This document shows positions 41,554-63,944 of a stretch of DNA of 64,000 bases, in pieces. Position 1 is the stretch's first letter; each line of letters begins with the position of its first letter. Under the pieces are notes generated by a model. The model had not been told where the DNA came from. It saw nothing but the letters and a program-made list of their open reading frames with translations, and made no database searches. Source of the stretch: Planctomycetota bacterium (GTDB taxonomy: Bacteria; Planctomycetota; Brocadiia; Brocadiales; Brocadiaceae); the NCBI GenBank assembly GCA_016235875.1, contig JACRII010000132.1, forward strand, positions 1-64,000, in the 5' to 3' direction. Position numbers and translations under genes: made by a program.

Positions 41554-43046
41554 CCATAATGAGAAAAATCATCTTCTTAGAGAATAAAAATAGTTATATT
41601 AAAACTTTTGTTCTTATTGCAATATTAGTGTTATTAACTGTATTCTTAATCGGATACCTTTCTATTGACCAACCTCCAATAGTTTATATATCCATTATCA
41701 GCGCCATTGTCATTATAACTATTACCGCGCTTTTTTTAAGAAATATAAACATAGCTGTTCCTGTATTAATAATCGTTTTGCCCATAAGCAAAATTGTGTT
41801 TTCTCTACAAATATTTCCTTTTGTAGGTTATCTGATAAAAATTACTCCAATTGACATATTTACTGTTACTGCGGTCATTTGTTTGTTTCTTTACAAGATT
41901 GCAGCAAAAGGCAGAAAAAACATCCTCCTTAAGGAGAAATCGGGTCCAGGGTATCTCAGCTTATTATTATTTGTTTTGGTAGCATTTGGCATATCATCCG
42001 TTATGTGGTCGCCCAACATAATTTTGGGATTGAATTTTTGTATAAAGTTGATATTGAACTGCTTAATGTATTTGCTTCTTGTTGTTTTAATAAAAAATGA
42101 GAGAGACATACTCAGGGCAATAAAAACTTTAATTTTTATAACGGTGATAATTGCTGCTACAATGATAGTTTCTATTTTTCCTATTGATTTATTAAACATT
42201 AAAAAAACATATTTTCTTACCGAGTATTTGGCCTTACAAGTCGTTTTCAAAACTTACCAGCTCAAGGCTAGTAGTATTACGTATCCACAGGATTCAGCAA
42301 CAATTTTAACTTTCGGTGTATTATTTAGCATGGGCTTATTGAGTCAGAACAAGGGGAAAAAAGAGAAAATTATGCTCTCTCTGATAATTATATTTTTAAT
42401 CTTATCGGCATTATACACAAAGGCAAGAGGGCCTATAGCCTCAATGCTTGTGGCGATATTATTCCTTATTTTTGCAATAAAGAACTTCAGAACAAATTTC
42501 TTTAGGAACTTGTATTTATTTACCATTTGTTTTATATTTTTGTTTGGCATATTCATAACCACGCATAGTTATCTTATTGATGTTATAAAGCCCTACTTGC
42601 CCCCATCATCTTCCGTAGGGGAGCATTCATTCAGTGACAGACTTAAATACTGGGAAACAGTGTACAATGCACTAAAAAATAGTGGTGCATATATACAAGG
42701 ATTAGGGGCTGGCGGAGCCAACTATTACCTTCTTGAAGTGCCGCACACGCATAATATTTATTTGTCGATATTTTTTGATCTGGGGTTGACAGGGCTTGTT
42801 ATATTTTTTACATTAATATCTATATCTATAACCAAACTTTTCCTAACAATAAGAAGCTTAAAAGAAGGTTTTGCAAAAGCTATGCTCTTATCAGCTTCTG
42901 GCTCCATTCTCGCGATAGGTCTTACAGCGCTTCTTGATTATAATTATAACTTTTGGCTACTATGGTTCATTATTGGGTTAAGTACTGCAATCTATAGATA
43001 CGCTGCTTCAATACCAGAAGAAAGTTTGTCCAATTCGATAAGTTGA
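41550..43046 (+). CDS. O-antigen polymerase/ligase-like membrane protein (Wzy/WaaL)
   Basis: 498 aa, about 12 hydrophobic helices, with a large loop between late helices containing DRLKYWETVYNAL and GLGAGG...HTHNIYLSIFFDLG, the usual Wzy_C/O-antigen ligase signature. GTG at 41550 overlaps the preceding stop; an ATG three codons on is an alternative start. It acts in the inner membrane on lipid-linked glycans. Confidence 0.88.
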   Translation: MTIMRKIIFLENKNSYIKTFVLIAILVLLTVFLIGYLSIDQPPIVYISIISAIVIITITALFLRNINIAVPVLIIVLPISKIVFSLQIFPFVGYLIKITPIDIFTVTAVICLFLYKIAAKGRKNILLKEKSGPGYLSLLLFVLVAFGISSVMWSPNIILGLNFCIKLILNCLMYLLLVVLIKNERDILRAIKTLIFITVIIAATMIVSIFPIDLLNIKKTYFLTEYLALQVVFKTYQLKASSITYPQDSATILTFGVLFSMGLLSQNKGKKEKIMLSLIIIFLILSALYTKARGPIASMLVAILFLIFAIKNFRTNFFRNLYLFTICFIFLFGIFITTHSYLIDVIKPYLPPSSSVGEHSFSDRLKYWETVYNALKNSGAYIQGLGAGGANYYLLEVPHTHNIYLSIFFDLGLTGLVIFFTLISISITKLFLTIRSLKEGFAKAMLLSASGSILAIGLTALLDYNYNFWLLWFIIGLSTAIYRYAASIPEESLSNSIS

Positions 43047-47520: not shown

Positions 47521-47749
47521 GCTTCATTACAATGAAATGTTATAAGGTAAGGCAATTGCATTAGAGCCTCTTGCAAAAGGCTTTACCCCACAGAGTTCCC
47601 CAGGGGAGAGAATGATGAGAACGTGGATCATGTTTCTGGTGAAATCCTTTATCATTTTCGACCTTGATTTACCTGTATCAGATTGCAGTTTTGTAGGATA
47701 TACATTACAATATAGAGATTTGTCAATTGCTGAAACATCTGGAGCGAGT

Positions 47750-48715
47750 GTGAGTGACCCAAAGGATATATTAAGATGGCTTTATTGGTACCCTTTTCGG
47801 TTTATTATTCAAGCATTACCAATTAGGGTAGTTTATCTCATAGGGAATATAGAGGGTACTATTTTATACCATTTTTCAAAAAAAAGGTATAAATCCTTGA
47901 AATCTGCTTTGTCATCAGTTATAAAAAAGGAAGACCTTGCCACAAAAAATGAGAGGGGTATCATACGAGATGCATTGAAACTCTTCTGCCAGAATGAACT
48001 TGAAATGTTTTTATACGCGAAACTCAATACTTCACTCATAAAAAATATGGTTGTATGTGAAGGCCTGAGCTATATCAATGAGTCTCTAAAACAAGGGAAA
48101 GGCGTCATGCTCCTTTTCGCCCATTTCGGTGCAAACCAAATGATTATGCCAGCCATCGGTTACCGCGGTTACAAGATGTACCAGATGAGTGCGCCGCCGA
48201 CGGTATGGGTCGAAAAACTGCATAACAAAAAGTTTAGCTCTATGGGTAAGCGCGCATTGGATATAAGATGGGAGCAAGAACTTTCCTTGCCAGTTACCCA
48301 TATAAATATATTCGGCTCGTTGAAAGAAGCATTTGTATGTTTAAAAAGAAATGAAATCCTTGGTATCGCTATAGACGGAGGAGGGGGAAAATCCAGGGTT
48401 GCTGTGGATTTTCTTGGAGGGAACGCCCTTTTTTCAACAGGGGCTATAGAGATTGCAATGAGAACAGGATGCGTGGTCTTGCCGGTATTTATGATCAAGG
48501 GCAGGGATGGCAGGCATAGGATGATTATAGAGCCACCTCTTGAAATTATAAAAGAACGCCGGGAAGGCGCTGTTGAAAAAAACATAACGGCCTTTGTAAA
48601 AAAGCTGGAAGAATATGTGCTAACTTATCCATCTCATTATTTGAATTTCCTCGCATTAAGAAAGTTTATGGAAGATATTGACGGCATTCCATTTATTATT
48701 AAGAACGGAGGATGA
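47750..48715 (+). CDS. LpxL/HtrB-family acyltransferase (copy 2)
   Basis: 321 aa from a GTG at 47750 preceded by GGAG. The frame is open to an ATG at 47612, but those residues do not resemble the family, while the GTG start (SDPKDILRWLYWYPFR) matches the starts of copies 1 and 3. Motifs are LFAHFGANQM and IAIDGGGGKSR. It directly precedes the run of B12-radical SAM genes (3 bases from stop to the next ATG), which suggests the radical SAM enzymes and this acyltransferase serve one lipid-related pathway. Confidence 0.85.
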   Translation: MSDPKDILRWLYWYPFRFIIQALPIRVVYLIGNIEGTILYHFSKKRYKSLKSALSSVIKKEDLATKNERGIIRDALKLFCQNELEMFLYAKLNTSLIKNMVVCEGLSYINESLKQGKGVMLLFAHFGANQMIMPAIGYRGYKMYQMSAPPTVWVEKLHNKKFSSMGKRALDIRWEQELSLPVTHINIFGSLKEAFVCLKRNEILGIAIDGGGGKSRVAVDFLGGNALFSTGAIEIAMRTGCVVLPVFMIKGRDGRHRMIIEPPLEIIKERREGAVEKNITAFVKKLEEYVLTYPSHYLNFLALRKFMEDIDGIPFIIKNGG

Positions 48716-48718
48716 TGA

Positions 48719-50236
48719 ATGTTTAAAGTATTGCTTATTAAACCCCCTTATTCGAGACTCAAATGCTTGGGACAGTCGCCCTATTTTCCGCTCGGATTAG
48801 GTTATATTGCGGCCGTGCTGGAAAAAGCTGATTATGAGGTTGGGATATATCATGCTGAAACTCCGCGCAGCCCGGTTGAATGTATAATCGAAGACGAAGA
48901 GGCAATATTCCATCAGCGGTCTAATGCTCAGAATCGGTATTACGAAGCGGTCAATAACGATGACCATCCCGTTTGGAAGGAAGTAAGGCAAACCATTGAT
49001 GATTTCAAGCCAGATTTGGTTGGAATATCCGTACTTACCGTCGAAGTTCCGGCTGCACTGAAATTAAGTAAGATATGCAAGACATACAATTCGCAGATGC
49101 CGGTTGTGTGGGGTGGTGTACACCCAACCTTTCTTCCTGAGCAGGTTTTAAGATACGGTCCGGTTGATATTGTTGTAAAGGGGGAAGGAGAAATGACCTT
49201 CCTTGAAATTTGCAATAAACTAAGAAATAAAGAGAGAGACTTAAGTAGTATAACTGGCATTTCTTACCAGAAGGATGGAAAGATTTTCCATAATGGAGTA
49301 AGACCCCTGATAGAAGATATAAACAGCATACCATTTCCGGCTACTCACCTCATCTTGTATCCGGAATCATTTAATTACAAATCAATGGGAAGCATGATTG
49401 TATCGAGAGGTTGTCCGTGGCGCTGCACATTCTGCTCATCGAGACTTTTCTGGGAAAAAAAGTTACGCATGAGATCGCCTGAGAACGTTATTGATGAGAT
49501 AAAGGTTCTTAAGGAACGCTACAATTCAAACTATATCATGTTCTGGGATGACTCTTTCAGCGTACAAAAAAAGATCGTTACAAAATATTGTAAAGGACTT
49601 GTTGATGCAAATCTAAACATTAGATGGAGGACAGCAACCAGGGCCGACCTTGTGGATGATGAGACCCTGCAGTGGATAAAAAAAGCCGGCTGTGTAAAAC
49701 TTGAAATAGGCGTTGAGAGCGGCAGTCCGCGTATGCAGAAGATTATAGCAAAAGACGTAGATAATGACATCGTAAAAAGGGCTTTTAGCCTTATAAAAGC
49801 CAATGGAATAGCTACAGGCGCATTTTTTATGGCTGGTTTTCCAGACGAGACAGCCGAAGACATGGCACAGACATTTCAATTGATGAAAGAACTAGGTATT
49901 GAAGAAATAGCATACAATATTTTTGACCCGATGCCGGGAAGCGATGCGTTAAAAAGATGTGAAGAATTAGGTTTGGTGCCAAAGGATGCAGACTGGAGTA
50001 ACTTCCGGTTTTGGCCTGACAGCCATTTCATGATAAATATGACCAAGGAAGATTTTTTAGTAAAAGCAACGGAAATAGGTAAATGGGTCTATGCTTATAA
50101 TAATAGTTTTTCTGTAAAATTCAGGAAACTAAGGTCATTGATATGGTTCTATATCTTAAACGATCCGGGCACGCTGGTTAAAAAAGCGGTCCATTATATC
50201 GGCCGCCGCAATAAGGTGCACCGTTTAAGGTCATAA
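48719..50236 (+). CDS. B12-binding radical SAM protein 1
   Basis: 505 aa. The N-terminal cobalamin-binding Rossmann domain (about 1-150) has VVWGGVHPTFLPEQ and KGEGEMTFLE; the radical SAM domain has C232-x3-C236-x2-C239 (RGCPWRCTFC). The layout is that of class B cobalamin-dependent methylases (and of cyclases such as BchE). It starts 3 bases after the acyltransferase stop. GGAGGATGATG overlaps its start. The substrate is unknown. Confidence 0.93.
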   Translation: MFKVLLIKPPYSRLKCLGQSPYFPLGLGYIAAVLEKADYEVGIYHAETPRSPVECIIEDEEAIFHQRSNAQNRYYEAVNNDDHPVWKEVRQTIDDFKPDLVGISVLTVEVPAALKLSKICKTYNSQMPVVWGGVHPTFLPEQVLRYGPVDIVVKGEGEMTFLEICNKLRNKERDLSSITGISYQKDGKIFHNGVRPLIEDINSIPFPATHLILYPESFNYKSMGSMIVSRGCPWRCTFCSSRLFWEKKLRMRSPENVIDEIKVLKERYNSNYIMFWDDSFSVQKKIVTKYCKGLVDANLNIRWRTATRADLVDDETLQWIKKAGCVKLEIGVESGSPRMQKIIAKDVDNDIVKRAFSLIKANGIATGAFFMAGFPDETAEDMAQTFQLMKELGIEEIAYNIFDPMPGSDALKRCEELGLVPKDADWSNFRFWPDSHFMINMTKEDFLVKATEIGKWVYAYNNSFSVKFRKLRSLIWFYILNDPGTLVKKAVHYIGRRNKVHRLRS

Positions 50237-50280
50237 CATGCATCAATCAGTATGAATACTGTTGGAAACTCAAAATATAA

Positions 50281-50302
50281 ATTATAAGGAATAAAGGTAT
50301 CC
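50281..50302. repeat. 22-base direct repeat, copy 1 (copy 2 at 56068-56089)
   Basis: An identical 22-base stretch (ATTATAAGGAATAAAGG...) occurs just before B12-radical SAM gene 2 and again just before the acyltransferase remnant, 5.8 kb downstream. It includes the ribosome-binding region AAGGAATAAAGG of the gene at 50305. Confidence 0.8.
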
Positions 50303-50304
50303 CA

Positions 50305-51900
50305 ATGAAGGTTACATTAATAGCGCCTACTCCGCATGATATAAGCGCCTTTGGCGTCAGGAGCCTTTCCTCTTATCTCAGAGAAAACGGACACGATACC
50401 AGGATCATATTCCTTCCAGGAAGCATAGGCAAGTTGAAGGAGGAAGGCAGCTTTGTATATAAATACAGCGATAGGGTAATTCAACAGATAATCGAGATCT
50501 GCAGGGACTCGGACCTTATCGGAGTATCCTTCATGTCTAATTATTTTGACCGGGCCAAGCAAGTTACGGATAGCTTGAAAGGGAAATTGAACATCCCCGT
50601 AGTATGGGGAGGCATCCATCCCACGGCAAGCCCTGAAGAATCCATAAGGCATACCGATATCGTCTGCTTGGGCGAGGGCGAAGATACCTTATTGGAACTT
50701 GCTCAAAAGATGGAAAAAGGAGAGGATTTTTCTGATATTAAAGGGCTGTGGTTTAACAAGGGTGATCAAATCATTAAAAATAAACTGAGAGAGCCTTTTG
50801 CAGACTTAGACCGGTTGCCCTTTTTCGATTTTAGCCTGAAAGACCATTATGTATTTGATCCTGAATCCGACAGCATAGTGACCCTAGGTGTCGAAAGATT
50901 TAAAAATATTCTCCCTCGCCTCCCGCACCCAGACAACAGGCTTAAGATAGCTTACAGGACCATGACGGACCGTGGATGCCCTCATAAATGTTCTTATTGC
51001 AATATAAGCAATCAAAAAGAGATGTACGATGAGATGGGTTCCAAATATTTCCGGGCGCGGAGTGTGGGGAATTTTATAAATGAACTTGTCGAGAGAAAAG
51101 AGAGGTTCCCATTTATAGAGGCCATCCAGTTCTTTGACGATACATTCTTTGCCAGGCCTGTCCATGAAATAGAGGATTTCAGCAGGATATACAAGGAGAA
51201 GGTAGGACTCCCTTTTTATTGCCAGGGCAGCCCTAACACTATTACAGAGAAAAAGATGGAATGCCTTGTGAATGCCGGCATGGTATATGTGGAAATGGGG
51301 ATTCAGACCGGAAGTGAAAGGATAAAGCACCTTTATAACAGGAATGAGTCAAATGAGAAGATTATAAAAGCAACTGAATTGATATCTCGTTATCTTCCCA
51401 GGATACTCCCACCTGACTATCATATTATACTCGACAACCCCTGGGAGACCCAGGATGATGTGATGGATACTGTAAGACTCTTGATGCAGGTGCCAAAACC
51501 TTACGGACTGTGCATATCCAGCCTTGTTTTCTTCCCACAGACACCCCTCTACTTCAAGGCAAAAAAAGAAGGCCTTATTAAAGATGAGGTCTCCGATATC
51601 TATAGAAGGCCTTTTTACATACCTCCCAGGAGGACTTATACGAATTTCCTCATATACCTTCTGACGTTCCAGCATTTCCCAAAGAGGCTTTTAAACCTCC
51701 TGGCAAGGGATTCTGTTGTAAAATCTTTGTCACAGAGAAACCTTGAGTTTGCGTATAAAATCGGGTATAAGATCGGAGAAAAGATAAGGTTTTCCGCAAA
51801 AGGGATAAAGGTGCTTTATCATCGCGACTGGGAAAGGATAAGGCTTTATTTGCACAAGATAAAAGCAAATGATCCCCTGGTTGAAGGTAGGAAACAATGA
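50305..51900 (+). CDS. B12-binding radical SAM protein 2
   Basis: 531 aa. B12 domain with DLIGVSFMSNYF, VVWGGIHPT and CLGEGEDT; radical SAM motif RGCPHKCSYC. It is clearly a paralogue of the protein at 53249: both begin MK(V/I)TLI(A/S)P and share SAFGVRSLS- or TAFGIRTIS-type and IIFLP-type blocks. It has the long C-terminal region of this subfamily (to 531 aa). The stop overlaps the start of the decayed copy (ATGA). Confidence 0.92.
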   Translation: MKVTLIAPTPHDISAFGVRSLSSYLRENGHDTRIIFLPGSIGKLKEEGSFVYKYSDRVIQQIIEICRDSDLIGVSFMSNYFDRAKQVTDSLKGKLNIPVVWGGIHPTASPEESIRHTDIVCLGEGEDTLLELAQKMEKGEDFSDIKGLWFNKGDQIIKNKLREPFADLDRLPFFDFSLKDHYVFDPESDSIVTLGVERFKNILPRLPHPDNRLKIAYRTMTDRGCPHKCSYCNISNQKEMYDEMGSKYFRARSVGNFINELVERKERFPFIEAIQFFDDTFFARPVHEIEDFSRIYKEKVGLPFYCQGSPNTITEKKMECLVNAGMVYVEMGIQTGSERIKHLYNRNESNEKIIKATELISRYLPRILPPDYHIILDNPWETQDDVMDTVRLLMQVPKPYGLCISSLVFFPQTPLYFKAKKEGLIKDEVSDIYRRPFYIPPRRTYTNFLIYLLTFQHFPKRLLNLLARDSVVKSLSQRNLEFAYKIGYKIGEKIRFSAKGIKVLYHRDWERIRLYLHKIKANDPLVEGRKQ

Positions 51901-53252
51901 AGATACTGCTAATGACGCCGTTGACATCTTTTATTGAGAACCCTCCACGCATACCTGAGTAGGCCTTGGGTATATAGCCGCTGCGCTTAAAAAGCATGGC
52001 CATGAGGTATACATAAGGGATTGGAATATGAATCCATCAATTGAGGATTTTAGGCAATGGCTCACAGAAAAGAATCCTGATATAGTAGGCGTCAAAATAT
52101 TTACCAAGGATGTTAAAGCAGCGAAAGAGACTATTTCAATTATAAGGGTAACACTGCCTGATGTTCTGATTATAATAGGCGGTCCGCATCCCTCTGCTTC
52201 TGAGCCAGAAGAATTAATGGAGGACTTTAAAGAGAGTAACTTTGCTATGCGAGGAGAGGCAGAAATTAGTTTTCCGCTCTTATTGGAAAAAATAAACCAA
52301 TTCAAGGAAATACCTATAAGAGGTGAGGTCACGCATGAATATTTAACAGGAATAGCAGGTTTAGTATGGTGGTTTAACGATCAAGTCTTTCATAATCCCA
52401 TCTCTCTTATTGAAGATTTGGATACAATTGATTTTCCATGCTGGGAGATGATTAATCCGTCTTTTTACTCACAACTCGTAAATGTGAAGGTGACTAATGC
52501 ACCCATTATTACTACCCGCGGCTGCCCTGGTAAATGTAGCTTTTGTAGCGCTTATATGGTTAACGGGAGAAGAATACGATCTCGCAATGCAGCAAATGTA
52601 TTTAAAGAAATGTCACTGTTATACACACAGTATAATGTGAGAAGGTTCATGTTTACTGACAACTGTTTTACTGCACGAAGGGAAAATATGAAGGCACTTT
52701 GCGTCCTCATAATAGATGGGAAAATGGATATAGAGTGGGATTGCGTGAGTTATGAACGCCTGGATAATCTTGATGATGAAACCCTTCCCTAATGTACAAG
52801 GCTGGATGTAGAATGCTTCATATGGGAATAGAATCGGGATGTGAGAAAACCAGAAAAAAGATGAATAAAATGTGTTCGTTTAAGGAGATAGCCGAAAGGT
52901 TAAAAGCATTCAAGAGCATGGAATAGGCGTCTGGGGATGGTTTATGCTGGGGTTTCCTGAAGAAACAAGGAATGATATGAAAGAAACTATAAAATATGCG
53001 TTTTCACTCGGTGCAAACCTTATTAAATTTAGCATTGTTTTTCCACTTCCAGGCTCGCAGAATTACAACTACCTTAAGGAAAAACACGGCATTAAAAGAA
53101 TTGACTGGTCTGGTTTTGATATTTCCAACTCTCCCTATCCCATGAGTTATGTACCATCAAAGAAATTGTCAAAGACGAAAAAGATGCTTGATTACAGAAG
53201 TCATATATATAACAATATTAAGCGATTAAGGTATTTGTTTGGTGTGAAATGA
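51897..53252 (+). pseudogene. B12-binding radical SAM protein 3, decayed by three frameshifts
   Basis: The reading frame changes at about 51960 (a TAG follows PRIPE, then GLGYIAAALKKHGHEV resumes), about 52788 (TAA after DDETLP, then LMYKAGCRMLHMGIESG) and about 52910 (then EHGIGVWGWFMLGFPEET). Each is repaired by a one-base change. The rest is a normal family member with VIIGGPHPSASEPEE- and TTRGCPGKCSFC-type blocks. It still ends with ATGA overlapping the next gene, so the operon frame was intact until recently. Confidence 0.85.
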
Positions 53253-54751
53253 AAATAACATTAATCTCGCCGTATCCCGACATTACGGCATTCGGTATTC
53301 GTACTATCTCGGCATATCTTAAAAATCACGGCCACAAGACCCAGCTTATATTCCTTCCTGACCCCTTCGGCGATAACCTTGCATTCGGCGTCAAAAGGTA
53401 TAATGAGTCTGTTTTAGATGCATTAATCCCGTTATGCAAGGATTCAAACCTTATAGGCATAAGCCTCATGACCAATTTTTATGAGGGGGCAGTGCAGATA
53501 ACCAAAAAATTAAAAGCAGGACTTGAGTCGCCTATTATTTGGGGAGGCATCCACCCGACAATAAGGCCTGAAGAGTCCATTGAACATGCTGACATTGTGT
53601 GCATGGGAGACGGTGAGGACTCTTTACTTGAACTTGTTACTAGAATGGGAAAAGGGGAACCTTACATAGACATTAAGAATCTGTGGTTCAAAGGCAGCGG
53701 AAAGGTGGTAAAAAACCCGCCGAGGAATCTCTCTCATAATTTGGATATATATCCACGGCCGGATTACAGCATGGATGACCACCACATAATGTATGAAGGG
53801 AAGATACAGCCCCTGACCTTTGCTCTTATGAAGCAGTACTTCGAAAAAGGGACCGTATCCCAATACCTGAAGAAAATCGGCTACCAGACTATGACTGGGC
53901 GCGGCTGTCCGCACAAATGCACTTACTGCATAAACGATACCTTGAAGACCATGTACAACAATGATAACTATCTGCGGTGGCGCTCCACCGCTCATGTAAT
54001 TGATGAACTCTTATGGGTCAAGGAGAGCCTACACTATGTTGGCTATATCTGGATATCGGATGATGCCTTTTTTGCCCGCAACAAAAATAACCTTGAAGAG
54101 TTTTGTAAAGAGTACAAGGAAAAAATAGGGCTTCCTTTTACCTGTCTTGCAAGCCCCATGACGATCTCAGAGGAAAAGATGGAGATGCTTGTTGACGCGG
54201 GGCTTATATATCTCCAGATGGGTGTAGAGAGCGGGAGCAAGAGGATACAGGAACTTTTCAACAGAAAGCAGATGGACAACGAAAAGCTCATGAAGGCGTT
54301 CCGCATCATCAACAAATACAAAGACAGGATGTATCCACCCAGCTACGATTTCATCCTGGATGTCCCTTATGAGACAGATATGGATAAGGTCGATAGCCTT
54401 AAACTCATAGCCGAGATACCGAAGCCGTTTCATCTCCAGCCCTTCTCGCTCGTCCTCTATCCCGGTACAAAACTTTACGAGCAGGCAAGGAAGGATGGCC
54501 TTATAGCCGATGAGAAAAAGCAGATATACGAGAAGAGCTATACGATGAGGAGCCAGACTTATTTAAATCTCCTCATAACACTGTCAAAGAACGGCAAGTT
54601 TCCGAGTCCGCTACTCAGGTTCTTTGTTAGTTCTCCTACCGTGGACATACTTAACAGCAGACCAATGAAGCCGGTGTTTAAGTCATTGTATACCGGTCTC
54701 AGATCAACCTATAGGCTTGCGAAGAGACTGACAGGCAGAGCAGTGGAATGA
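53249..54751 (+). CDS. B12-binding radical SAM protein 4
   Basis: 500 aa, a paralogue of the protein at 50305. The B12 domain has LIGISLMTNFY, IIWGGIHPT and CMGDGEDS; the radical SAM motif is RGCPHKCTYC. It starts in the ATGA of the decayed copy and ends in the ATGA of the next gene, so all these genes were one translationally coupled operon. The substrate is unknown; a lipid or lipid-linked precursor is suggested only by the acyltransferases at both ends of the run. Confidence 0.92.
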   Translation: MKITLISPYPDITAFGIRTISAYLKNHGHKTQLIFLPDPFGDNLAFGVKRYNESVLDALIPLCKDSNLIGISLMTNFYEGAVQITKKLKAGLESPIIWGGIHPTIRPEESIEHADIVCMGDGEDSLLELVTRMGKGEPYIDIKNLWFKGSGKVVKNPPRNLSHNLDIYPRPDYSMDDHHIMYEGKIQPLTFALMKQYFEKGTVSQYLKKIGYQTMTGRGCPHKCTYCINDTLKTMYNNDNYLRWRSTAHVIDELLWVKESLHYVGYIWISDDAFFARNKNNLEEFCKEYKEKIGLPFTCLASPMTISEEKMEMLVDAGLIYLQMGVESGSKRIQELFNRKQMDNEKLMKAFRIINKYKDRMYPPSYDFILDVPYETDMDKVDSLKLIAEIPKPFHLQPFSLVLYPGTKLYEQARKDGLIADEKKQIYEKSYTMRSQTYLNLLITLSKNGKFPSPLLRFFVSSPTVDILNSRPMKPVFKSLYTGLRSTYRLAKRLTGRAVE

Positions 54752-56022
54752 AAGTCCTTCTTGTTCAATCATACATTGGCGGGAATGAACCGCCAGTCTT
54801 TCCCTTAGGCCTGGCGTGCATTAAGGCGCAAATCGCAAATCATGATGTCCGCGGATTTGATACAAATACCTCCAAAAGACCTTTTGAGGAATTGAAGGAG
54901 ATTGTCGAGGATTTTTCACCCGATGCCATAGGAATATCACTAAGGAATATAGATTCCACCAACAAGAGAGAGGTGGTCTTCTATTATTCTTATCTAAAGA
55001 AGGCCATTGATGAGATAAAGGCTGTCTCCAATGCAAAGATAATAGTAGGAGGCTCAGGTTTTTCCATGTTCGCAAGAGAGATAATGGAGGACGAGCCGAG
55101 GGTAGATTATGGCGTCTTTTTGGAAGGAGAGAGGACTGTCTCGGCCCTTTTCGATAATCTCGGTACACCTGAACTGATAAAGGGGGTCTTTTACAGGAAA
55201 GATGGTAATGTTGTATTCTCAGGGCATGGAGGACAGGTAGATCTGAACGGTGTCAATCTTCCAGACAGAGAAATTATCCCTGCCAGTGATTATAAAGAAG
55301 TCATGGAGACGATAGGGATAGAGACAAAGCGAGGTTGTGCCCTTAAGTGCGTTTATTGCATATACGGTTTTTTAAATGGAAAAGAATACAGGCTAAGGGC
55401 GCCGAAAAGGGTAGTTGACGACATAGAGCTTCTGCTCAAGGAGAATGGCATCGACACCTTTACCTTTGTAGATTCCGTTTTCAACATACCTTTGACACAT
55501 GCAGAGGATATATGCAACGAGATAATTAAGAGAGGTCTGAAGGTTAAATGGTCTGCGTGGTTCAGTGAAAAAGGGTTGAAAAAGGAGTTTGTGGAACTGG
55601 TCAAGACTGCCGGATGCAGGAAGATAATCCTCTCCCCTGACGGCTATTCAGAAAAGGTTTTAAAGTCACTTGGGAAGAACATAACAAAAAAAGATATTCT
55701 CGAATCTTACGAACTCCTAAAGAGTATCGACGGCTACGAGGTATGCTACAACTTCTTCAAAAACCCTCCGGACCAGAGCATTACGGCGTTTCTGTCCATG
55801 CTTTTTTTCAGCCTGAAGGCAAAGATGCAGATGGGAGGGCGCGTGCATTTTGAGTTCAATTCCATGAGAGTGGAACCTCATACCAAGCTTTACCAGATAG
55901 CGATAAAGGAAGGGTTTGTAAAGGACAAGGAAAATTTATTATATCCCAAATACTATACGAATCCCAGGACTTTCTATATTGAGAAGATGTTTAATCTAAT
56001 ACTTAGATTGAAAGGCAAATGA
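54748..56022 (+). CDS. B12-binding radical SAM protein 5
   Basis: 424 aa, shorter and more distant than copies 2 and 4. The B12 domain has FPLGLACIKAQI, IIVGGSGFSMFAREIM and FLEGERT; the radical SAM motif is KRGCALKCVYC. It lacks the long C-terminal extension. It starts in an ATGA overlap with the preceding gene. After it the coupling ends, and a remnant acyltransferase follows 78 bases on. Confidence 0.9.
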   Translation: MKVLLVQSYIGGNEPPVFPLGLACIKAQIANHDVRGFDTNTSKRPFEELKEIVEDFSPDAIGISLRNIDSTNKREVVFYYSYLKKAIDEIKAVSNAKIIVGGSGFSMFAREIMEDEPRVDYGVFLEGERTVSALFDNLGTPELIKGVFYRKDGNVVFSGHGGQVDLNGVNLPDREIIPASDYKEVMETIGIETKRGCALKCVYCIYGFLNGKEYRLRAPKRVVDDIELLLKENGIDTFTFVDSVFNIPLTHAEDICNEIIKRGLKVKWSAWFSEKGLKKEFVELVKTAGCRKIILSPDGYSEKVLKSLGKNITKKDILESYELLKSIDGYEVCYNFFKNPPDQSITAFLSMLFFSLKAKMQMGGRVHFEFNSMRVEPHTKLYQIAIKEGFVKDKENLLYPKYYTNPRTFYIEKMFNLILRLKGK

Positions 56023-56100
56023 CACATTCCATATGTTTTGATCAAAACGTCCGGACAGTAGTGATAGATTATAAGGAATAAAGGTATCCATCGGTAATAA

Positions 56101-56441
56101 ATGACAGTAAACGAAGGCGTTCTCCGCGACATCCTCAGATTATTTATATGGTTTCCGTTTCAATGGTTTGTCAGGGGTATTCCTGTTATGTGGGTTTTTT
56201 TCTTTTTAAACTGATCGGTGATCTGCATTTTTTTCTGGGTGGTAGCAAAAAAAATAAAATTCATGAGAATCTAAAAACTGTCTTGAATGTTGATGATCAC
56301 ACGGCATCGCGCATAGTAAAAAGAAATTTGGAAAATCATTACATAGATAGACTTCACATATTCCTTTATCAGAAATTAACTACCAAAGAAAAAATTCTGG
56401 AATATGTACGATTTGAAAATATAGAATTTGAGGGAGGTTGA
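56101..56441 (+). pseudogene. LpxL-type acyltransferase remnant (copy 3)
   Basis: Starting at ATG 56101, the first ~35 residues (VLRDILRLFIWFPFQWF...) match the starts of the two intact acyltransferases. A frameshift near 56190-56210 leads into FKLIGDLHFFLGGSKKNKIHENLK and NLENHYIDRLHIFLYQKL, and the frame stops at 56441. About two thirds of the protein, including the HxxFG catalytic region, is missing. Confidence 0.8.
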
Positions 56442-56643: not shown

Positions 56644-57942
56644 ATGATTAAAAATACCTTCCTTAAAGTAATAAAACAAAACCCTTCTCTCTTTGTTATT
56701 CTTTGGCTGGTTTGCGTGTATTCAGTTAATATTAATGCTACAGAAACGGCAGTCCCTGAAATTCATGAGGAAGATCTAACCGATTATATCTTAGGACCAG
56801 GAGATAAGCTGGAAATAAGTGTTTTCAGGAATAGCGACCTCACCAGCTCTCCACAAGTAGATACCACAGGCATGTTAACGCTGCCTTTGTTAAATGATAT
56901 GAAAGTTGTAGGACTTACTCCGTATCAACTGAGAGATAAGATAACTGAGGGGCTTAAAAAATATATTAAAGACCCACAAGTTACAGTTATGGTTTCCAGT
57001 TATCAGAGCAAAAAAATTACTGTAATTGGCGAGGTAAACAATCCGGGCGTTTTTAAAATAGAAAAACCGCAGCCAGTTTCGCTATTAATTTCAAATGCTG
57101 GAGGTTTTACTGAAAACGCAAATAAAGAAGGCATTACTATTATCAGGAAAGATTCAAAAGGCGCAAATCAACTTATTATGGTAGATATGGTAAAACTATT
57201 AAGAGAAGGAGACACAAAACAAAATATTATACTCCAAAAGGACGATATTATTTATGTTCCTAAAGACGAAAGGAAGGTAACTGTATTAGGAGAAATTAAT
57301 ACTCCGGGTACCATAGGCATCAGTGTAAGACTTGGAATTTTAGAAGCAATCGCAAAGGCAGGGAATTTCACAACTGATGCAAACAAAAACAATATTATCA
57401 TTATGGGAAAAGATAATAAATCTCCAATTAGAATAGTGGATTATCAACAAATATTAGACAATAGAGACTTAAGTAAAAATTTAACACTCACAGATGGTGA
57501 AGTGGTCTATGTACCACGTGAAAATAAACAAGTCTTAATTATTGGCGAAGTAACAAATCCTGGCGTTATAAGCAACGACCCACAACAAACCTTATTAGAA
57601 GCGATTACGAAACGAGGTGGTTTTACAACTGACGGAAACAAAAGTAAGGTATTCATAATCCGTGGTACTACTGAAAAGGCCAATATTGTTTCATATAACC
57701 TTAAAAAACTGCTGAAGGAAGGAGACGTATCCCAAAACATCCTGCTTCAAAAAGGCGATATTGTCTATGTACCGCCTACCTTTATAGCAAGTACAGAATC
57801 TGTGCTTAATCATATAAGAAGCATCCTTTCTGTGGCATTATCAGCGGAAAGTGCTATTACGTTCTGGCCTCAGACAAAACAGGTTCTCGAAACGGGAGAG
57901 AGTACTGCAGCTTCTTCTATTGTTGTAAGTCCAGGGCAATAA
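56644..57942 (+). CDS. Wza-type polysaccharide export protein with several SLBB domains
   Basis: 432 aa. An N-terminal hydrophobic stretch (about 14-33) acts as signal or anchor; no lipobox Cys is seen. A Poly_export domain (about 47-120, ILGPGDKLEISV) precedes three SLBB-type repeats, each opening with (V/I)xGEVxNPG or VLGEINTPG (about 125, 215 and 300). The family forms periplasmic or outer-membrane export channels that dock on Wzz/BY-kinase proteins such as the one at 38316. Confidence 0.9.
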   Translation: MIKNTFLKVIKQNPSLFVILWLVCVYSVNINATETAVPEIHEEDLTDYILGPGDKLEISVFRNSDLTSSPQVDTTGMLTLPLLNDMKVVGLTPYQLRDKITEGLKKYIKDPQVTVMVSSYQSKKITVIGEVNNPGVFKIEKPQPVSLLISNAGGFTENANKEGITIIRKDSKGANQLIMVDMVKLLREGDTKQNIILQKDDIIYVPKDERKVTVLGEINTPGTIGISVRLGILEAIAKAGNFTTDANKNNIIIMGKDNKSPIRIVDYQQILDNRDLSKNLTLTDGEVVYVPRENKQVLIIGEVTNPGVISNDPQQTLLEAITKRGGFTTDGNKSKVFIIRGTTEKANIVSYNLKKLLKEGDVSQNILLQKGDIVYVPPTFIASTESVLNHIRSILSVALSAESAITFWPQTKQVLETGESTAASSIVVSPGQ

Positions 57943-57966: not shown

Positions 57967-58481
57967 TTAAAAAAATACTGGCGTATACTTGTTAAAAGAA
58001 GGGTTTTGTTTTTTAGTATTTTTGGTCCAATAATATTTTCTTCCCTCCTTTTTGGGTTCCTATCTACACCCATTTATAAAGCAACGAGTAATGTACTGAT
58101 AAAAAATAGCGATAGAGCTACTATCGTCTCATCTTTACCTGCCAGCGCAGGTAATATAAATTAAAAGGAGATACTTTGTTTTTGCTTTCCGCTGGCAAGA
58201 ATCTTTCTGGTAGAACAGGGATACCAGAAAATTCCCGGAAGATACAGGAGTTTTTAAGTACCCTTCAATCAAAGTATGACGTAATCATTTACGACACGCC
58301 ATCGTTTTCAGATGGACTTGAGTATATCCTGGCAATGTATGGCCTTGATAATATCATTATGGTGGTTGAAGCCAATAGATTCTCCGGGGAATTAATACAC
58401 ACAGAACTTGCATCACTCAAGGGCAAGGGGATAACTTCGCTGGGCACCGTGCTGAACAAATATCATGCAAAACGTAGTTGA
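57967..58481 (+). pseudogene. Wzz/BY-kinase remnant with large internal deletion
   Basis: 57967-58164 reads as the Wzz start (KKYWRILVKRRVLFFSIFG ... TPIYKATSNVLIKNSD) in one frame and ends in TAA. From 58176 another frame carries only the end of the kinase domain (SKYDVIIYDTPSF, IIMVVEANRFSG, GTVLNKYHAK). The middle, including both Walker A motifs, is gone. It follows the wza-like gene, where a working copy would be expected; the intact paralogue is at 38316. Confidence 0.82.
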
Positions 58482-58526: not shown

Positions 58527-59753
58527 TTGAAATTCTGGTTCTGTTTAAACCGTTTGAGGAAAAAGAATTTGTATTACAGAGTTATAAACCGTAAGAAAAG
58601 GGATTTTACCATTATTGCTGACTTATTGGGATATGCATTATGGACACCTATAAACCTCTTTAAAAAGAGAAACGTTCCCTTAACCAACATCAGAGAAATT
58701 CTGGTCATTCGTACTGCCTATATCGGCGATGTGATCATGACACTACCAATTTTGAAACCGTTGAAGGAACTTTATCCTGATGCCGGGATAACTTTCTTAA
58801 CCAGTTCCAGCGCAAGAGACGTTTTACTTAACAATCCATATGTTGATGCAATTCTCACGTACGATGACTTCTGGTTTTATCCTAAAGGTTTTAAAGAAGC
58901 AGTAAAAGATTATCTGAGATTTTTGAAGACTCTCAGGTCAAAAACGTATGATTTGGTAATAGAGGCAAGGGCAGATATACGGGATATCCTGTTGTTAGCC
59001 TATTTGAGCAAGAGCCGATATAAGGCAAGTTATAAGGTTGGTGGTGGAGGGTATCTGCTTACTCATGTGGTGCCATTTAAAAAGGTAAAACATAGAATTA
59101 ACTATCATCTGGATATCGTCAAATTTTTAGGTGGTAATATCGACAAGATCGAATGGGGGATGTGCCTCGATTCCAAAGAACAAAATACCGCGGATTTGCT
59201 TCTCGTGCAGGAAGGGATTAATCGCGCAGATTTTTTGGTGGGTATTCATCCGGGAAGCCGGAAGGAATTAAAATCCTGGTTTCCTGATAGATTTGCAAAA
59301 CTGGCTGATAGTATCATAACCGAATACGGGGCACAGGTTATATTTACCGGCTCGCCAGAGGAAAGGGACTTCATTGACAGTATAATAATGAAGATGTGCC
59401 ATAAAGCAGTCAATCTTGCAAGAAAAACAGACCTCAGGCTCCTTTCAGGTATCATAGAAAAATTGGACTTATTTATCTGCAACGACAGTGCCCCCCTCCA
59501 CATCGCTTCCGCCATGGAAACACCCACAGTAGCCATCTTTGGGCCTTCGAAGAGTCTGGAGACAGGACCGTATGGGAATATTCACAAGGTTGTAGAAAAA
59601 GACTTCCCTTGCAGATTTAACTGTGATGAGGATATCTGCAAGCACAAAGTCTATAAAGAGTGTATGGAAAAGATACAGGTAACTGACGTCTTAGAAGCCG
59701 TTAGGAAGATCATCGGAGAATTGCGTAAAAAGATAGAATATCAAACTGTATAA
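58527..59753 (+). CDS. GT9 glycosyltransferase (ADP-heptose:LPS heptosyltransferase-like)
   Basis: 408 aa from a TTG; start uncertain, and the family domain begins near residue 57. Motifs are ILVIRTAYIGDVIMTLPIL near the start of the domain, GIHPGSRKELKSW in the middle and CNDSAPLHIASAMETPTVAIFGPS (sugar-nucleotide binding) near the end. It probably adds a heptose or another sugar to a lipid-linked glycan on the cytoplasmic face. Confidence 0.9.
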   Translation: MKFWFCLNRLRKKNLYYRVINRKKRDFTIIADLLGYALWTPINLFKKRNVPLTNIREILVIRTAYIGDVIMTLPILKPLKELYPDAGITFLTSSSARDVLLNNPYVDAILTYDDFWFYPKGFKEAVKDYLRFLKTLRSKTYDLVIEARADIRDILLLAYLSKSRYKASYKVGGGGYLLTHVVPFKKVKHRINYHLDIVKFLGGNIDKIEWGMCLDSKEQNTADLLLVQEGINRADFLVGIHPGSRKELKSWFPDRFAKLADSIITEYGAQVIFTGSPEERDFIDSIIMKMCHKAVNLARKTDLRLLSGIIEKLDLFICNDSAPLHIASAMETPTVAIFGPSKSLETGPYGNIHKVVEKDFPCRFNCDEDICKHKVYKECMEKIQVTDVLEAVRKIIGELRKKIEYQTV

Positions 59754-59848: not shown

Positions 59849-61147
59849 ATGAACACAATGTCTGTAAAATCAAATTTTGAAGAGATTTTAACAAAACCTG
59901 CCGACTCGGGATTCAGATTAGACATCATGCGGGCATATTCCAAAGACGACATTCGGAATGTATTGTTTCATACCTTAGAACGATATAAAGACCTGCTGCC
60001 CGCTTCAAATACTGCAAAGATATTTTTAAAACCCAATCTGAACAGCAATATGAACGCCTTAACGGGCAACACTACCGACCTCAGGATTGTTGGCGCTGTT
60101 ATCGAATTCCTCATGGAGAATGGATACAAAAATCTAACCATGGGTGAGGGGACAAATAGTGGGTTTTACAGAAACGGTATTAGCGTAATTTCCAGGCTGG
60201 GCATTGACAAATTGGGTGAGCATTACGGCATCAAGGTGGTCGATTTAAATTATTCTGAAAAGGTGGAGGTAACGTTTGAAAATGGGATAAAGTCAGGCGT
60301 TGCAAAGGAATGCCTGGACACGGATTTTTTCATTAACCTACCCAAACTAAAAACCCATTTTGAAGTGGGAATGAGTGTATGCCTGAAAAATATGATCGGA
60401 TGCCTCGTCGGACAGGAAAGCAAGAAAAAGACTCATAAGAGCCTAGCCAAAAATATACTCAACATCAACAAAAAGATAAAACCACACCTTCACATCGTTG
60501 ATGGACTCATTAGCATGGAAGGGCTTGGGCCTACTCGTGGCACTCCCCTGTGTACAGGGCTTATCATCGTAGGAATCGATCCATACCTTATTGATTTAAC
60601 CTGTGCGAGAATCGCTAAATTTAATTATCGCAAGGTTAAAACACTGAAGGCAGCCGAAGATGAAGGAATACTTACTAATAAGTATCATGAATTCGTCAAA
60701 TCTCTGGATTTGTCTGCAATCACCAGGAAATTCAAGGAACCAAAGGCAAATGCGCTCGTTTCTTTCATTCACAGCCCAAAACGCCAGCGATACTTTCTTG
60801 CCATTCGGAATACACCATTTTTTAATTATTTGTGTTCTACAAAATTATTTGGTCACTTCCTTTTCCTGTCCGGACTCCGGCAAGATAACTTTATAAAAGA
60901 AGACATGGTCTTTCATGGTTTCACTTTTGACAAGACCTTGTGCAAGGGTAGATGTACAAAGTGCAGGGATTACTGCCCGACTGGACTCAGGCTTCCTGAA
61001 ACGATTGAGAATCAGGACAATGGTTGCGTAGAGTGTCTCTATTGCTTTTTAGTCTGTCCCACAAAGGCTATTGGGTTCAAAGGAAAACTTGGCTTTGCAG
61101 CCGAACAGCTACGCCAATATGACGAAATTACAAGGATGATAGTTTAG
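59849..61147 (+). CDS. DUF362 protein with C-terminal 2x[4Fe-4S] ferredoxin-like module
   Basis: 432 aa. A DUF362 core (about 40-290: KPNLNSN, GEGTNSGFYRNG, LPKLKTHFEVGMSVCLKNMIGCLVG) is followed by a linker and a ferredoxin-like segment with two cysteine clusters, CKGRCTKCRDYC and CVECLYCFLVC (about 365-410). The role of DUF362 proteins is not settled. The iron-sulphur module suggests electron transfer, possibly to the radical SAM enzymes nearby (inference). The stop is immediately followed by the next gene's GTG. Confidence 0.88.
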   Translation: MNTMSVKSNFEEILTKPADSGFRLDIMRAYSKDDIRNVLFHTLERYKDLLPASNTAKIFLKPNLNSNMNALTGNTTDLRIVGAVIEFLMENGYKNLTMGEGTNSGFYRNGISVISRLGIDKLGEHYGIKVVDLNYSEKVEVTFENGIKSGVAKECLDTDFFINLPKLKTHFEVGMSVCLKNMIGCLVGQESKKKTHKSLAKNILNINKKIKPHLHIVDGLISMEGLGPTRGTPLCTGLIIVGIDPYLIDLTCARIAKFNYRKVKTLKAAEDEGILTNKYHEFVKSLDLSAITRKFKEPKANALVSFIHSPKRQRYFLAIRNTPFFNYLCSTKLFGHFLFLSGLRQDNFIKEDMVFHGFTFDKTLCKGRCTKCRDYCPTGLRLPETIENQDNGCVECLYCFLVCPTKAIGFKGKLGFAAEQLRQYDEITRMIV

Positions 61148-61522
61148 GTGAAGGTTTTATTATTTAATCCACCATTCCTTAAAAAATTTTCCCGCCCGCA
61201 GCGCAGCCCTGCCGTAACCAAGAGCAGAACTCTGTACTTTCCCATGTGGCTGGCCTATGCTACAGGTGTTTTAGGCGAAAATGGATTTGACGTCGACCTG
61301 ATAGATGCCCCGGCAGATAACTATTCCATTGACGATGTGATCGAAAGAACCAAAAAGTTTCAACCGTCCCTCATTGTCCTGGATACCAGCACGCCGAGTA
61401 TTTACAACGACGTTGCCGGCCAGTTGAAAGAAATATGTCCATCTTCTTTTATAACCCTTGTAGTAACCCATGTATCGGCGCTTTCCGAAGAAACCTTGAA
61501 TATGAGAAAATCAGACCGATGA
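61148..61522 (+). pseudogene. Truncated B12-binding radical SAM gene (B12 domain only)
   Basis: 124 aa from a GTG. It matches the cobalamin-binding N-terminus of the family (VLLFNPPF, YFPMWLAYATGVLGENGFDVDLIDAP, FQPSLIVLDTSTPS). It breaks off after FITLVVTHVSALSEETL, before any iron-sulphur motif, and runs straight into the prenyltransferase start. Probably a deletion fused the remnant to the next gene's 5' end. A free-standing B12-domain protein is a less likely alternative. Confidence 0.75.
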
Positions 61523-62406
61523 AAGAGGACTTGCTGAAATATATTCTTTTATCCATGCGACCAGAGCAGTGGATAAAAAACTTTTTTGTATTTACTGCCT
61601 TGCTATTTTCAAAAAACCTACTCAATCCATTAAAGGGCATCGAGGCCATTATCGGATTTACCATCTTTTGCATGATCACAGGCTGTGCATACATGATTAA
61701 TGACCTTGTTGATCTTGAAAAAGACAAACTACACCCTGTCAAGTCCAGACGACCACTTGCGTCCGGAAAGCTAAAGAAAGACACGGCGGTTAAGATCGTC
61801 GTCCTTGTTTGCCTTACTAGTCTTTTTTTTGCTTTTTACATGAACGTCTTGTTTGGGATCATCGTCCTTGCCTACTTCTTACTCAATATAGGGTACAGTA
61901 TTTACTTAAAAAATATCGTAATTATCGACGTCGTCTCTATTGCCGCAGGATTTGTGTTAAGGGTGCTAGGTGGCGCAGTCATTATCTCCGTAGTCGCCTC
62001 GCAGTGGCTGATCCTGTGTACAATCCTTTTATCGCTATTTCTGGGTTTCAGCAAAAGAAGGCACGAACTCATTCTGCTGGAAGATAGCGCTACAAGCCAT
62101 AGAAAGGTCTTAGAACACTATAGCCCCTACTTCCTGGATCAGATGATTGCTGTCGTCACAGCATCTACTTTGATCTGCTATGCCCTATATACCATGGCAA
62201 AAGATACGGTTGAAAAACTCGGCACTTCAAAACTCATCTATACGATTCCATTTGTATTGTACGGTATCTTTCGGTATCTTTATTTAGTACATCAAAAAGA
62301 AAAAGGGGGTAGTCCTACAGAGATTATGTTTACAGATAAACCCATGATTATTAACATAAGTTTATGGGTTATAGTATCTATTGTATTTATCTACATTGTA
62401 CACTAA
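61519..62406 (+). CDS. UbiA-family prenyltransferase, decaprenyl-phosphate phosphoribosyltransferase-like
   Basis: 295 aa from the ATG at 61519, which overlaps the preceding remnant's stop. About eight membrane helices. The prenyl-diphosphate motif region NDLVDLEKDKLHPVKSRRPLASG, together with RPEQWIKNFFVF at the start, is characteristic of DPPR synthases (mycobacterial UbiA/Rv3806c type). These make polyprenyl-phosphoribose, the first step to polyprenyl-arabinose donors. It would serve GT39-type transferases such as the one at 43160. Confidence 0.87.
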   Translation: MKEDLLKYILLSMRPEQWIKNFFVFTALLFSKNLLNPLKGIEAIIGFTIFCMITGCAYMINDLVDLEKDKLHPVKSRRPLASGKLKKDTAVKIVVLVCLTSLFFAFYMNVLFGIIVLAYFLLNIGYSIYLKNIVIIDVVSIAAGFVLRVLGGAVIISVVASQWLILCTILLSLFLGFSKRRHELILLEDSATSHRKVLEHYSPYFLDQMIAVVTASTLICYALYTMAKDTVEKLGTSKLIYTIPFVLYGIFRYLYLVHQKEKGGSPTEIMFTDKPMIINISLWVIVSIVFIYIVH

Positions 62407-62501
62407 TTAGAACACACAGATTTACGCAGCTATTCACAGATAAATAATTTTTAAATCCCGATAATTTGTGCTTATTTGTGTCCATAATAAAATCGTACGC
62501 T

Positions 62502-63944
62502 ATGAAATTTAAAAAAGCACTTTTATTTAACCCACCAGTAGGTCTTTACCAGCGGGGGGAAGACCGTTGCCAGGCAGAAGTTGATGGGAGCAGTGCCACA
62601 TCATTGCGCCCACCCAACGATTTGGGATACATTGCTTCAATGCTAAGGCAAATAGAGGCCATACCTGTCATTGCTGATTATCCTGCTGAGAGAAAACAGT
62701 GGAGTCACTTTGAAGAGGAATTAAAAACTACCCAGCCTGAGTTCTTAGTAATGAGCATCACTACACCTACCATTAAAGACGATATGAAGGCGTTTTCCAT
62801 TGCAAAGGCATGGAACCCAGCAATTTTTACTATTGCAAAAGGAGCCCACTTTTATACCTGCAACAAAGAAGACCTGAAAGAATCTGTTTATGATGTTATG
62901 GATGTCGCTATTGTCGGCGAGGCTGAAACAATTATAAACAACTTGATCCTTGCGAAAAGACAGGGATCGGATTTAAATAAAGTCAAAGGAATCTTATTCA
63001 AGAACCACACTGGCCAGATCATCCAAACAGAACCAGAACCATTCTGGACGAATCTTGATAAAATCCCATTTCCTGCTAGAGACCTGATAAACAACCACCT
63101 TTATACCCGTCCTGATACTGGTGAACCACAGGCAACAATCCAGACTTCCCGGGGTTGTCCTTCCCAGTGCATCTTTTGTTTGTCCCCCCTTATTTCAGGA
63201 ACCAAACTGCGGGAACGATCAGTACGGAATATCATTTCAGAACTTGAAGAGTGCATAAATAAATACCACATACAGAACTTCTTCTTTCGCGCAGACACTT
63301 TCACTATGAATAAAAAATCAGTGATCGAATTATGCAAGGAAATTATAAACCGTAAGCTTGACATTGCTTGGGTAGCCAACAGCCGTGTAAATACTATTGA
63401 TGAAGAACGCTTGACTTGGATGAAAAAGGCAGGATGCTGGCTGGTGGCATTTGGGATTGAGTCGGGGAATGACGAAATCCAAAAAAGAATCAAAAAGGGC
63501 ACCACCCAAGTACAGGCACGCGAGGTAGTGAGGCTATGCAAAAAACTCGGGATCAAAACCTATGGTTTTTTTCTGATAGGTTTTCCCTGGGAAACACGGG
63601 AGATGATTATGGATACCTTGCGCCTCGCCAAAGAACTCCGTTGTAATTTCTCAGAAATCCACATTGCTATTCCCTATGAAGGGACTGAATTTTACAGGAT
63701 TGCTGAAGAATTAGGAATCCTTACAGAAACAGCCGTTGGTCATAATTATTTTTCCGATCCAGCCATAGGCACGCTTCATGTGACCAAAGAAGAACTTATT
63801 GAGATGCGCAAAAAAGCCCTAAAATCCCTATACCTGAACCCACCTTACGTCACAAATACCCTTATCCACGTTAAAAGTCTAAAAGAAGTGAAAAACTACA
63901 CCCGGTATGGGATACGATTACTGAAGAATATGCTCAAACGCTAA
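62502..63944 (+). CDS. B12-binding radical SAM protein 6
   Basis: 480 aa from the ATG at 62502; the frame is open to a GTG at 62466 without a ribosome-binding site. The B12 domain has LLFNPPVGLYQRGEDRCQ, LRPPNDLGYIASMLR and IVGEAETIINNL; the radical SAM motif is SRGCPSQCIFC. The usual His of the base-on B12 motif is not evident. A family member with its own promoter region; the 95-base spacer before it contains only a short A/T-rich repeat (ATTTGTGC words). 56 bases without features follow to the window end. Confidence 0.92.
   Translation: MKFKKALLFNPPVGLYQRGEDRCQAEVDGSSATSLRPPNDLGYIASMLRQIEAIPVIADYPAERKQWSHFEEELKTTQPEFLVMSITTPTIKDDMKAFSIAKAWNPAIFTIAKGAHFYTCNKEDLKESVYDVMDVAIVGEAETIINNLILAKRQGSDLNKVKGILFKNHTGQIIQTEPEPFWTNLDKIPFPARDLINNHLYTRPDTGEPQATIQTSRGCPSQCIFCLSPLISGTKLRERSVRNIISELEECINKYHIQNFFFRADTFTMNKKSVIELCKEIINRKLDIAWVANSRVNTIDEERLTWMKKAGCWLVAFGIESGNDEIQKRIKKGTTQVQAREVVRLCKKLGIKTYGFFLIGFPWETREMIMDTLRLAKELRCNFSEIHIAIPYEGTEFYRIAEELGILTETAVGHNYFSDPAIGTLHVTKEELIEMRKKALKSLYLNPPYVTNTLIHVKSLKEVKNYTRYGIRLLKNMLKR

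Follow-up and report, generated by a model that had tools for sequence, protein, structure and literature searches.

What is the substrate of a run of B12-binding radical S-adenosylmethionine (SAM) genes in a bacterium of the anammox order Brocadiales? We addressed this question for a 64,000-base stretch of DNA (the window; bases 1-64000 of the 70,929-base contig JACRII010000132.1) from a 2.67-Mb Brocadiales genome that comprises 207 contigs and is 83.5% complete. A preliminary description of the window had suggested an acyl chain or a lipid-linked precursor as the substrate and had raised ladderane or hopanoid-like lipid tailoring as a possible function. With moderate confidence, we favour a different function for the run: a horizontally acquired cassette within a Wzx/Wzy-type surface-polysaccharide locus, whose enzymes would C-methylate or otherwise modify a sugar unit while it is still attached to lipid, ahead of its export. 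The domain content of the run, its gene coupling, its setting in a polysaccharide locus, its conservation across phyla and its horizontal origin carry this reading; its substrate, reaction and electron supply are inferred.

The run consists of coupled B12-binding radical SAM genes

The B12-binding radical SAM genes were named rS1 to rS8 in their order along the contig, and the run itself comprises the following features.

47612..48715, + strand: LpxL-like protein that opens the run (Pfam Lip_A_acyltrans, 88.4 bits; true start probably near 47750)
48719..50236, + strand: rS1, B12-binding radical SAM protein (Pfam B12-binding and Radical_SAM; motif RGCPWRCTFC)
50305..51900, + strand: rS2, B12-binding radical SAM protein (Pfam; 44% identical to rS4)
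51897..53252, + strand: rS3, decayed B12-binding radical SAM gene with three frameshifts (Pfam on the fragment 52028-52792)
53249..54751, + strand: rS4, B12-binding radical SAM protein (Pfam; structure model)
54748..56022, + strand: rS5, B12-binding radical SAM protein (Pfam; structure model; tree)
56101..56441, + strand: second LpxL-like gene, a remnant (tblastn with the LpxL-like protein of locus L074, residues 1-34 and 23-111)

Pfam matches to both the B12-binding and the radical SAM domain exceeded the cut-offs for rS1, rS2, rS4, rS5 and rS8, and the CX3CX2C motif is intact in these five proteins, in rS7 and in the rS3 fragment. While rS1, rS2, rS4 and rS5 are full length, rS3 is spread over three frames and is broken near 51960, 52789 and 52897; its pieces are 53-73% identical to an uninterrupted homologue in locus L152. 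Pfam and the reading of the frames thus bear out the preliminary description of an acyltransferase-type gene followed by five B12-radical SAM genes, one of them decayed. The remnant said to close the run was also correctly labeled: the 97-residue open reading frame (ORF) 3' of rS5 has no Pfam match alone, yet residues 1-111 of an LpxL-like protein can be aligned to 56101-56429, and L152 carries an intact gene to which the remnant is 54% identical.

rS1 starts 3 nucleotides past the LpxL-like gene and is separated from rS2 by 68 nucleotides. From rS2 onward the genes are linked by ATGA overlaps, as had been described and as direct reading confirmed (rS2/rS3 at 51897-51900, rS3/rS4 at 53249-53252 and rS4/rS5 at 54748-54751). 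Because the 4-nucleotide rS4/rS5 overlap is kept in 23 of the 28 homologous loci checked, the window counted, the run is not a product of chance. A 26-nucleotide direct repeat, with one mismatch between its copies, brackets rS2-rS5 (50277-50302 before the rS2 start and 56064-56089 after rS5, both on the + strand). A genome search returned only these two copies, which rules out a genome-wide repeat, and none was found in 12 relatives at up to three mismatches; the pair is possibly the scar of an insertion or duplication.

Predicted structures also support the assignment to the B12-radical SAM superfamily. The model of rS5 (predicted local distance difference test score, pLDDT, 93.8) is nearest in fold to TsrM (6wte) and that of rS4 (pLDDT 91.7) to MgmA (9ccb), and both models match TsrM, MgmA, OxsB, CysS and AprD4. 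Structures with bound cobalamin are among these matches, but so is AprD4, which is not known to use cobalamin. TsrM, MgmA, OxsB, CysS and TokK resemble the two models with template modeling (TM) scores on the query of 0.57-0.79; however, they are only 14-22% identical to rS5 and rS4, and they are known to act on tryptophan, a glutamine residue, a nucleotide or antibiotic intermediates. The predicted folds therefore support cobalamin radical chemistry but do not speak for a substrate. Weak PDB sequence matches of rS4 to Cmr2 chains (E about 4e-5, one segment) were treated as unrelated.

The run lies within a Wzx/Wzy-type polysaccharide locus

The run sits within a polysaccharide locus of ~37 kb, with polysaccharide genes on both flanks that the preliminary description did not include; it also overlooked rS6 (61148), rS7 (62466) and rS8, just beyond the window. 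An initiating transferase, Wzx, Wzy, Wzc and Wza all occur within 28932-57942, and the same set is found in relatives. The locus contains the following further features.

28932..29522, - strand: bacterial sugar transferase, the initiating polyprenyl-phosphate sugar-1-phosphate transferase (Pfam Bac_transf, 226.6 bits)
30011..31498, + strand: AMP-binding acyl ligase (Pfam AMP-binding, 261 bits; partner kept in syntenic loci)
31495..32655, + strand: Zn-dependent dehydrogenase of scyllo-inosose 3-dehydrogenase (IolM) type, the locus marker (Pfam)
33168..34118, + strand: first LpxL-like protein of the locus (Pfam Lip_A_acyltrans, 98.6 bits; motif HFGTMQ)
Starting at 34244, upstream of the run: SPASM radical SAM gene
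Starting at 35424, upstream of the run: flavin oxidase
38316..40106, + strand: Wzc-type chain-length/tyrosine kinase protein (Pfam Wzz, GNVR and CbiA)
40087..41553, + strand: Wzx-type flippase (Pfam Polysacc_synt)
41550..43046, + strand: Wzy-type O-antigen polymerase/ligase (Pfam Wzy_C)
Starting at 43160, upstream of the run: PMT_2 glycosyltransferase
Starting at 45598, upstream of the run: GH39-like protein
56644..57942, + strand: Wza-type polysaccharide export protein (Pfam Poly_export and SLBB domains)
57973..58481, + strand: second Wzc gene, a remnant (tblastn pieces)
58527..59753, + strand: glycosyltransferase of family GT9 (Pfam, 108.5 bits; 55-57% identical in run loci L141 and L142)
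59849..61147, + strand: DUF362 protein with an Fer4 domain (Pfam, 145.7 bits; 68-72% identical in run loci)
61148..61522, + strand: rS6, an N-terminal B12-domain remnant that duplicates the start of rS8 (86% identical to the rS8 start of G001, locus L169)
61435..62406, + strand: UbiA-family prenyltransferase (Pfam, 81.2 bits)
62466..63944, + strand: rS7, B12-binding radical SAM protein (CX3CX2C motif)
64012-65490 of the contig (L009:2012-3490), past the window: rS8, complete B12-binding radical SAM gene (Pfam above cut-offs)

Two syntenic loci of Brocadiales, L073 and L075, keep the sugar transferase in its position and on its strand. The marker dehydrogenase is 85% identical to its L073 orthologue, which scores 549 bits against NF041097 (cut-off 450). 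As in known Wzx/Wzy-dependent exopolysaccharide and capsule loci, an initiating sugar transferase stands together with Wzx, Wzy, Wzc, Wza and glycosyltransferases. The locus differs from them in having up to eight genes for B12-binding radical SAM proteins, LpxL-like proteins that lack the catalytic acidic residue, the IolM-type dehydrogenase and the DUF362 protein. We found no description of this cassette in the open-access papers searched for B12 radical SAM genes alongside exopolysaccharide, O-antigen, Wzx/Wzy or the LpxL annotation.

Three further features of the window were recorded. A 219-residue ORF between the PMT_2 and GH39-like genes (44461-45120) looks truncated and has no Pfam match, and the UbiA and rS7 genes lie between the rS6 remnant and the complete rS8 as if inserted. 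A gas-vesicle gene cluster at 3509-17957 (GvpL/F and AAA ATPase by Pfam), with a pair of GvpA-like ORFs that encode near-identical proteins (9097-9324 and 9567-9785) and, at 17649, a related ORF, all three recognized by eye, was unexpected in an anammox bacterium.

Since rS3 carries three frameshifts and the second LpxL-like gene, one Wzc and rS6 are remnants, the run could be a decaying, non-functional insertion in the host genome. We consider this unlikely because rS1, rS2, rS4 and rS5 keep their full length, their CX3CX2C motifs and their overlaps. Furthermore, rS3 may be dispensable, as other loci often carry only rS2, rS4 and rS5.

Relatives of the run occur across phyla

An rS5 alignment was searched against one genome per species, which yielded 55 loci. 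The nearest relatives of the run, at up to 77% identity and with its gene order kept, belong to Deltaproteobacteria and Nitrospirae. The best matches to rS5 are 52-68% identical and belong to Deltaproteobacteria, Nitrospirae (including the magnetotactic Magnetominusculus), Kiritimatiellia and the purple sulfur bacterium Marichromatium gracile, whereas the rS5 orthologues of Brocadiales are only 39-46% identical to the window copy. Gene order is also conserved. Loci L141 and L142 encode, in order, an LpxL-like protein, rS2, rS4 and rS5, and later an LpxL-like protein, GT9, DUF362 and rS8; in L146, an LpxL-like protein, rS1, rS2, rS4 and rS5 are followed by Wza, Wzc and Wzy. The window and L142 proteins are 70% (rS2), 76% (rS4), 66% (rS5), 57% (GT9), 68% (DUF362) and 71% (rS8) identical, rS4 reaches 76-77% identity in Deltaproteobacteria, and rS1 is 55% identical to the Deltaproteobacterial orthologue in L146.

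A near-complete locus also occurs in cultured strains. One stretch of M. gracile DSM 203 encodes the sugar transferase, AMP-ligase, dehydrogenase, Wza, Wzc, Wzy, Wzx, a phosphodiesterase, rS2, rS4, rS5 and GT9. Relatives of the run are likewise found in the sulfate reducer Solidesulfovibrio, where S. alcoholivorans DSM 5433 carries rS4, rS5, an LpxL-like gene, rS2, rS8 and an apparent family 2 glycosyltransferase.

We compared gene neighbourhoods at 35 rS5-family loci of at least 10 kb, bearing in mind that many comparison loci come from fragmented metagenome bins, that several are near-duplicates and that phylum labels are as submitted. A Wz gene is present at 25 of the 35, at least two B12 radical SAM genes at 29 and at least three at 20. 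The controls, 17 loci of TIGR04072 type from the same order, scored 0/17 for Wz genes, for LpxL-like genes and for at least two or at least three B12 radical SAM genes.

In a tree made by a quick method and supported by the Shimodaira-Hasegawa-like approximate likelihood ratio test (SH-aLRT) without bootstrap, the window rS5 groups with Deltaproteobacterial sequences (SH-aLRT 97) in a clade of 26 rows without any further anammox sequence, and the remaining Brocadiales rS5 form a separate clade. In addition, rS1 has no orthologue in Brocadiales, only paralogues that are 33-39% identical. On these sequence comparisons, rS1-rS5 of the window were probably acquired from another phylum. Because rS8 is nevertheless 94% identical to the copy of a congener (L169 of G001), the locus is a mosaic.

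The run is accessory in Brocadiales, and a ladderane or hopanoid role is improbable

If the run served a general anammox trait, it should be general among anammox bacteria. Across 62 Brocadiales genomes, the marker dehydrogenase is present in 8 (72-87% identity) and an rS5 orthologue in 7, all among those 8. The locus set and its B12 radical SAM genes are syntenic in G001, G003 and G004 of the host genus and in G015, G020 and G023 of another genus; among these last three is Candidatus Kuenenia hertensis (L180), which shares an identical rS5 with G020. Neither the marker dehydrogenase nor an rS5 orthologue was found in the closed, hydrazine-synthase-positive genomes G016 and G018. The locus is therefore accessory and not a core anammox trait. 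A related polysaccharide locus (L083, G005:C631) has three other B12 radical SAM genes without the marker dehydrogenase, and such enzymes may be a wider theme of Brocadiales polysaccharide loci.

A ladderane function would fit the anammox host and a score of 257.6 bits for rS5 against TIGR04072 (rSAM_ladder_B12). That score falls short of the cut-off of 360, however, and every other run protein scores lower. Loci with a TIGR04072 protein above the cut-off match, by gene content, the Kuenenia fatty-acid cluster proposed for ladderanes (PMC2649909); relative to that system rS5 is a distant relative on a separate deep branch, with another gene neighbourhood and another distribution. Fatty-acid-synthesis genes occur in 6/6 examined loci of that kind, whereas neither the window nor any of 43 run loci yielded a keto-synthase, acyl carrier protein (ACP) or FabZ gene (a single FabG-like match stood alone). 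Given the few anammox carriers, the closed genomes that lack rS5, the missing fatty-acid-synthesis core and the fact that the named ladderane candidate is another gene, ladderane synthesis by the run is very unlikely, and we rejected this candidate as almost certainly wrong. The preliminary description had named presence in non-anammox organisms that lack unusual lipids, combined with absence from anammox ones, as a pattern that would speak against its proposal, and this is largely what we found: the run is widespread in non-anammox bacteria, from which the window copy probably came, and rS5 is missing from most anammox genomes. TIGR04072 proteins above the cut-off (L121, L125 and related loci) were themselves found in only 7/62 Brocadiales, which is awkward for the fatty-acid cluster as a general ladderane pathway.

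Hopanoid tailoring in the manner of HpnJ or HpnR fared no better. HpnJ is the best NCBIfam match of rS7 (238.8 bits) and rS4 (105.9 bits), far below its cut-off of 577.6; HpnR scores at most 89.4 bits (cut-off 650). The host genome does encode a hopene cyclase, but on another contig, and this near-universal gene was present in 21 of 22 relatives tested, most of which lack the run. No hopanoid gene was recognized in the locus, and we regard this function as highly improbable. The top NCBIfam match of rS5 is BzaD of lower-ligand biosynthesis (TIGR04385), whose cut-off of 450 it does not reach (294.4 bits), and no bza or cob gene was recognized in the run neighbourhood.

LpxL-like proteins are constant companions of the run

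Both LpxL-like proteins of the window belong to the LpxL/LpxM/PatA superfamily (PF03279), exceeding its cut-off of 22.3 bits. They share its fold family and catalytic His but lie far below every curated subfamily cut-off. Moreover, the acidic partner of the HX4D/E motif is replaced: the window motifs are HFGANQ (gene at 47612) and HFGTMQ (gene at 33168), and the acid is absent in 44 of 46 LpxL-like members, which have Q, H, L, K or M in its place and retain the catalytic His. In alignment with PDB sequences, the Gln of the 47612 gene product falls on Glu in Acinetobacter baumannii LpxM 5kn7 and on Ala in 5knk. The label of lipid acyltransferase is therefore insecure.

An LpxL-like gene nonetheless accompanies 29 of the 35 loci, across phyla, and this constancy makes a lipid-linked precursor a reasonable substrate; that part of the earlier substrate proposal is partly supported, while its acyltransferase basis is weakened. 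It also bears on another explanation, in which the run edits the acyl moiety of a glycolipid or of an acylated glycan, with acylation by the LpxL-like proteins and methylation or cyclization by the radical SAM enzymes yielding an unusual envelope lipid that is no ladderane. Consistent with this, the LpxL-like genes lie directly beside the run even at loci that lack Wz genes (Solidesulfovibrio), the loci often include an AMP-ligase (10/35), and among 13 Brocadiales tested PF03279 proteins are confined to locus-bearing genomes. However, the absence of the motif acid makes acyl transfer doubtful, no run locus has an ACP, keto-synthase or FabZ gene, and most larger run loci carry polymerization and export genes. 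We judge editing of the acyl part to be rather improbable.

A proposed model for editing of a lipid-linked sugar unit

In the model that we favour, the sugar transferase, AMP-ligase, inosose-type dehydrogenase and GT9 would build a polyprenol-linked sugar or cyclitol unit. The radical SAM enzymes would then act on this unit in sequence, in an order that we infer, as C-methyltransferases or related editors (deoxygenation, ring change). The LpxL-like proteins may handle an acyl group or another part of the lipid-linked intermediate before Wzx flips the unit, and Wzy, Wzc and Wza would polymerize and export it. The DUF362-ferredoxin protein could supply electrons. The likeliest reaction would be C-methylation, and its substrate a glycan or a glycan linked to lipid.

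Several points weigh against this model. At 10 of the 35 loci, including Solidesulfovibrio, there is no Wz gene within about 10 kb; the link to polysaccharides is thus not absolute, and the LpxL-like genes are an equally constant companion. No member has a known chemistry, all scores lie below NCBIfam equivalog cut-offs, and the folds cannot tell sugars from other substrates. Finally, the window has breaks in one gene of the run, in one LpxL-like gene and in one Wzc, so the pathway may be degrading in this host.

Implications for surface glycans

Anammox granules, like many anaerobic biofilms, are thought to be held together by surface polysaccharides, and to our knowledge B12 radical enzymes that C-methylate bacterial glycans are hardly documented. 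As background only, since the run was not shown in that organism, Kuenenia stuttgartiensis has an S-layer O-glycan with heavy methylation, which has been read as O-methylation (PMC5088730). Our analysis removes a tempting but wrong ladderane candidate. The interest of the run lies instead in its being a conserved and mobile cassette of several B12 radical SAM enzymes that would serve an exported product. Its genes are coupled, its conservation extends from Marichromatium to Nitrospirota, and cultured strains have members of it; it offers a testable route to a new glycan or glycolipid. A separate puzzle, open to biochemical testing, is posed by the LpxL-like family that lacks the acidic residue. 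More tentatively, the cassette of LpxL-like, rS1-rS5, LpxL-like, GT9, DUF362 and rS8 might specify a new class of surface glycolipid or polysaccharide with an extensively C-alkylated unit, in which proteins of LpxL fold have a role other than acyl transfer. We think this possible but doubtful; if true, a conserved mobile multi-enzyme cassette of several phyla would make a previously unrecognized class of surface glycan.

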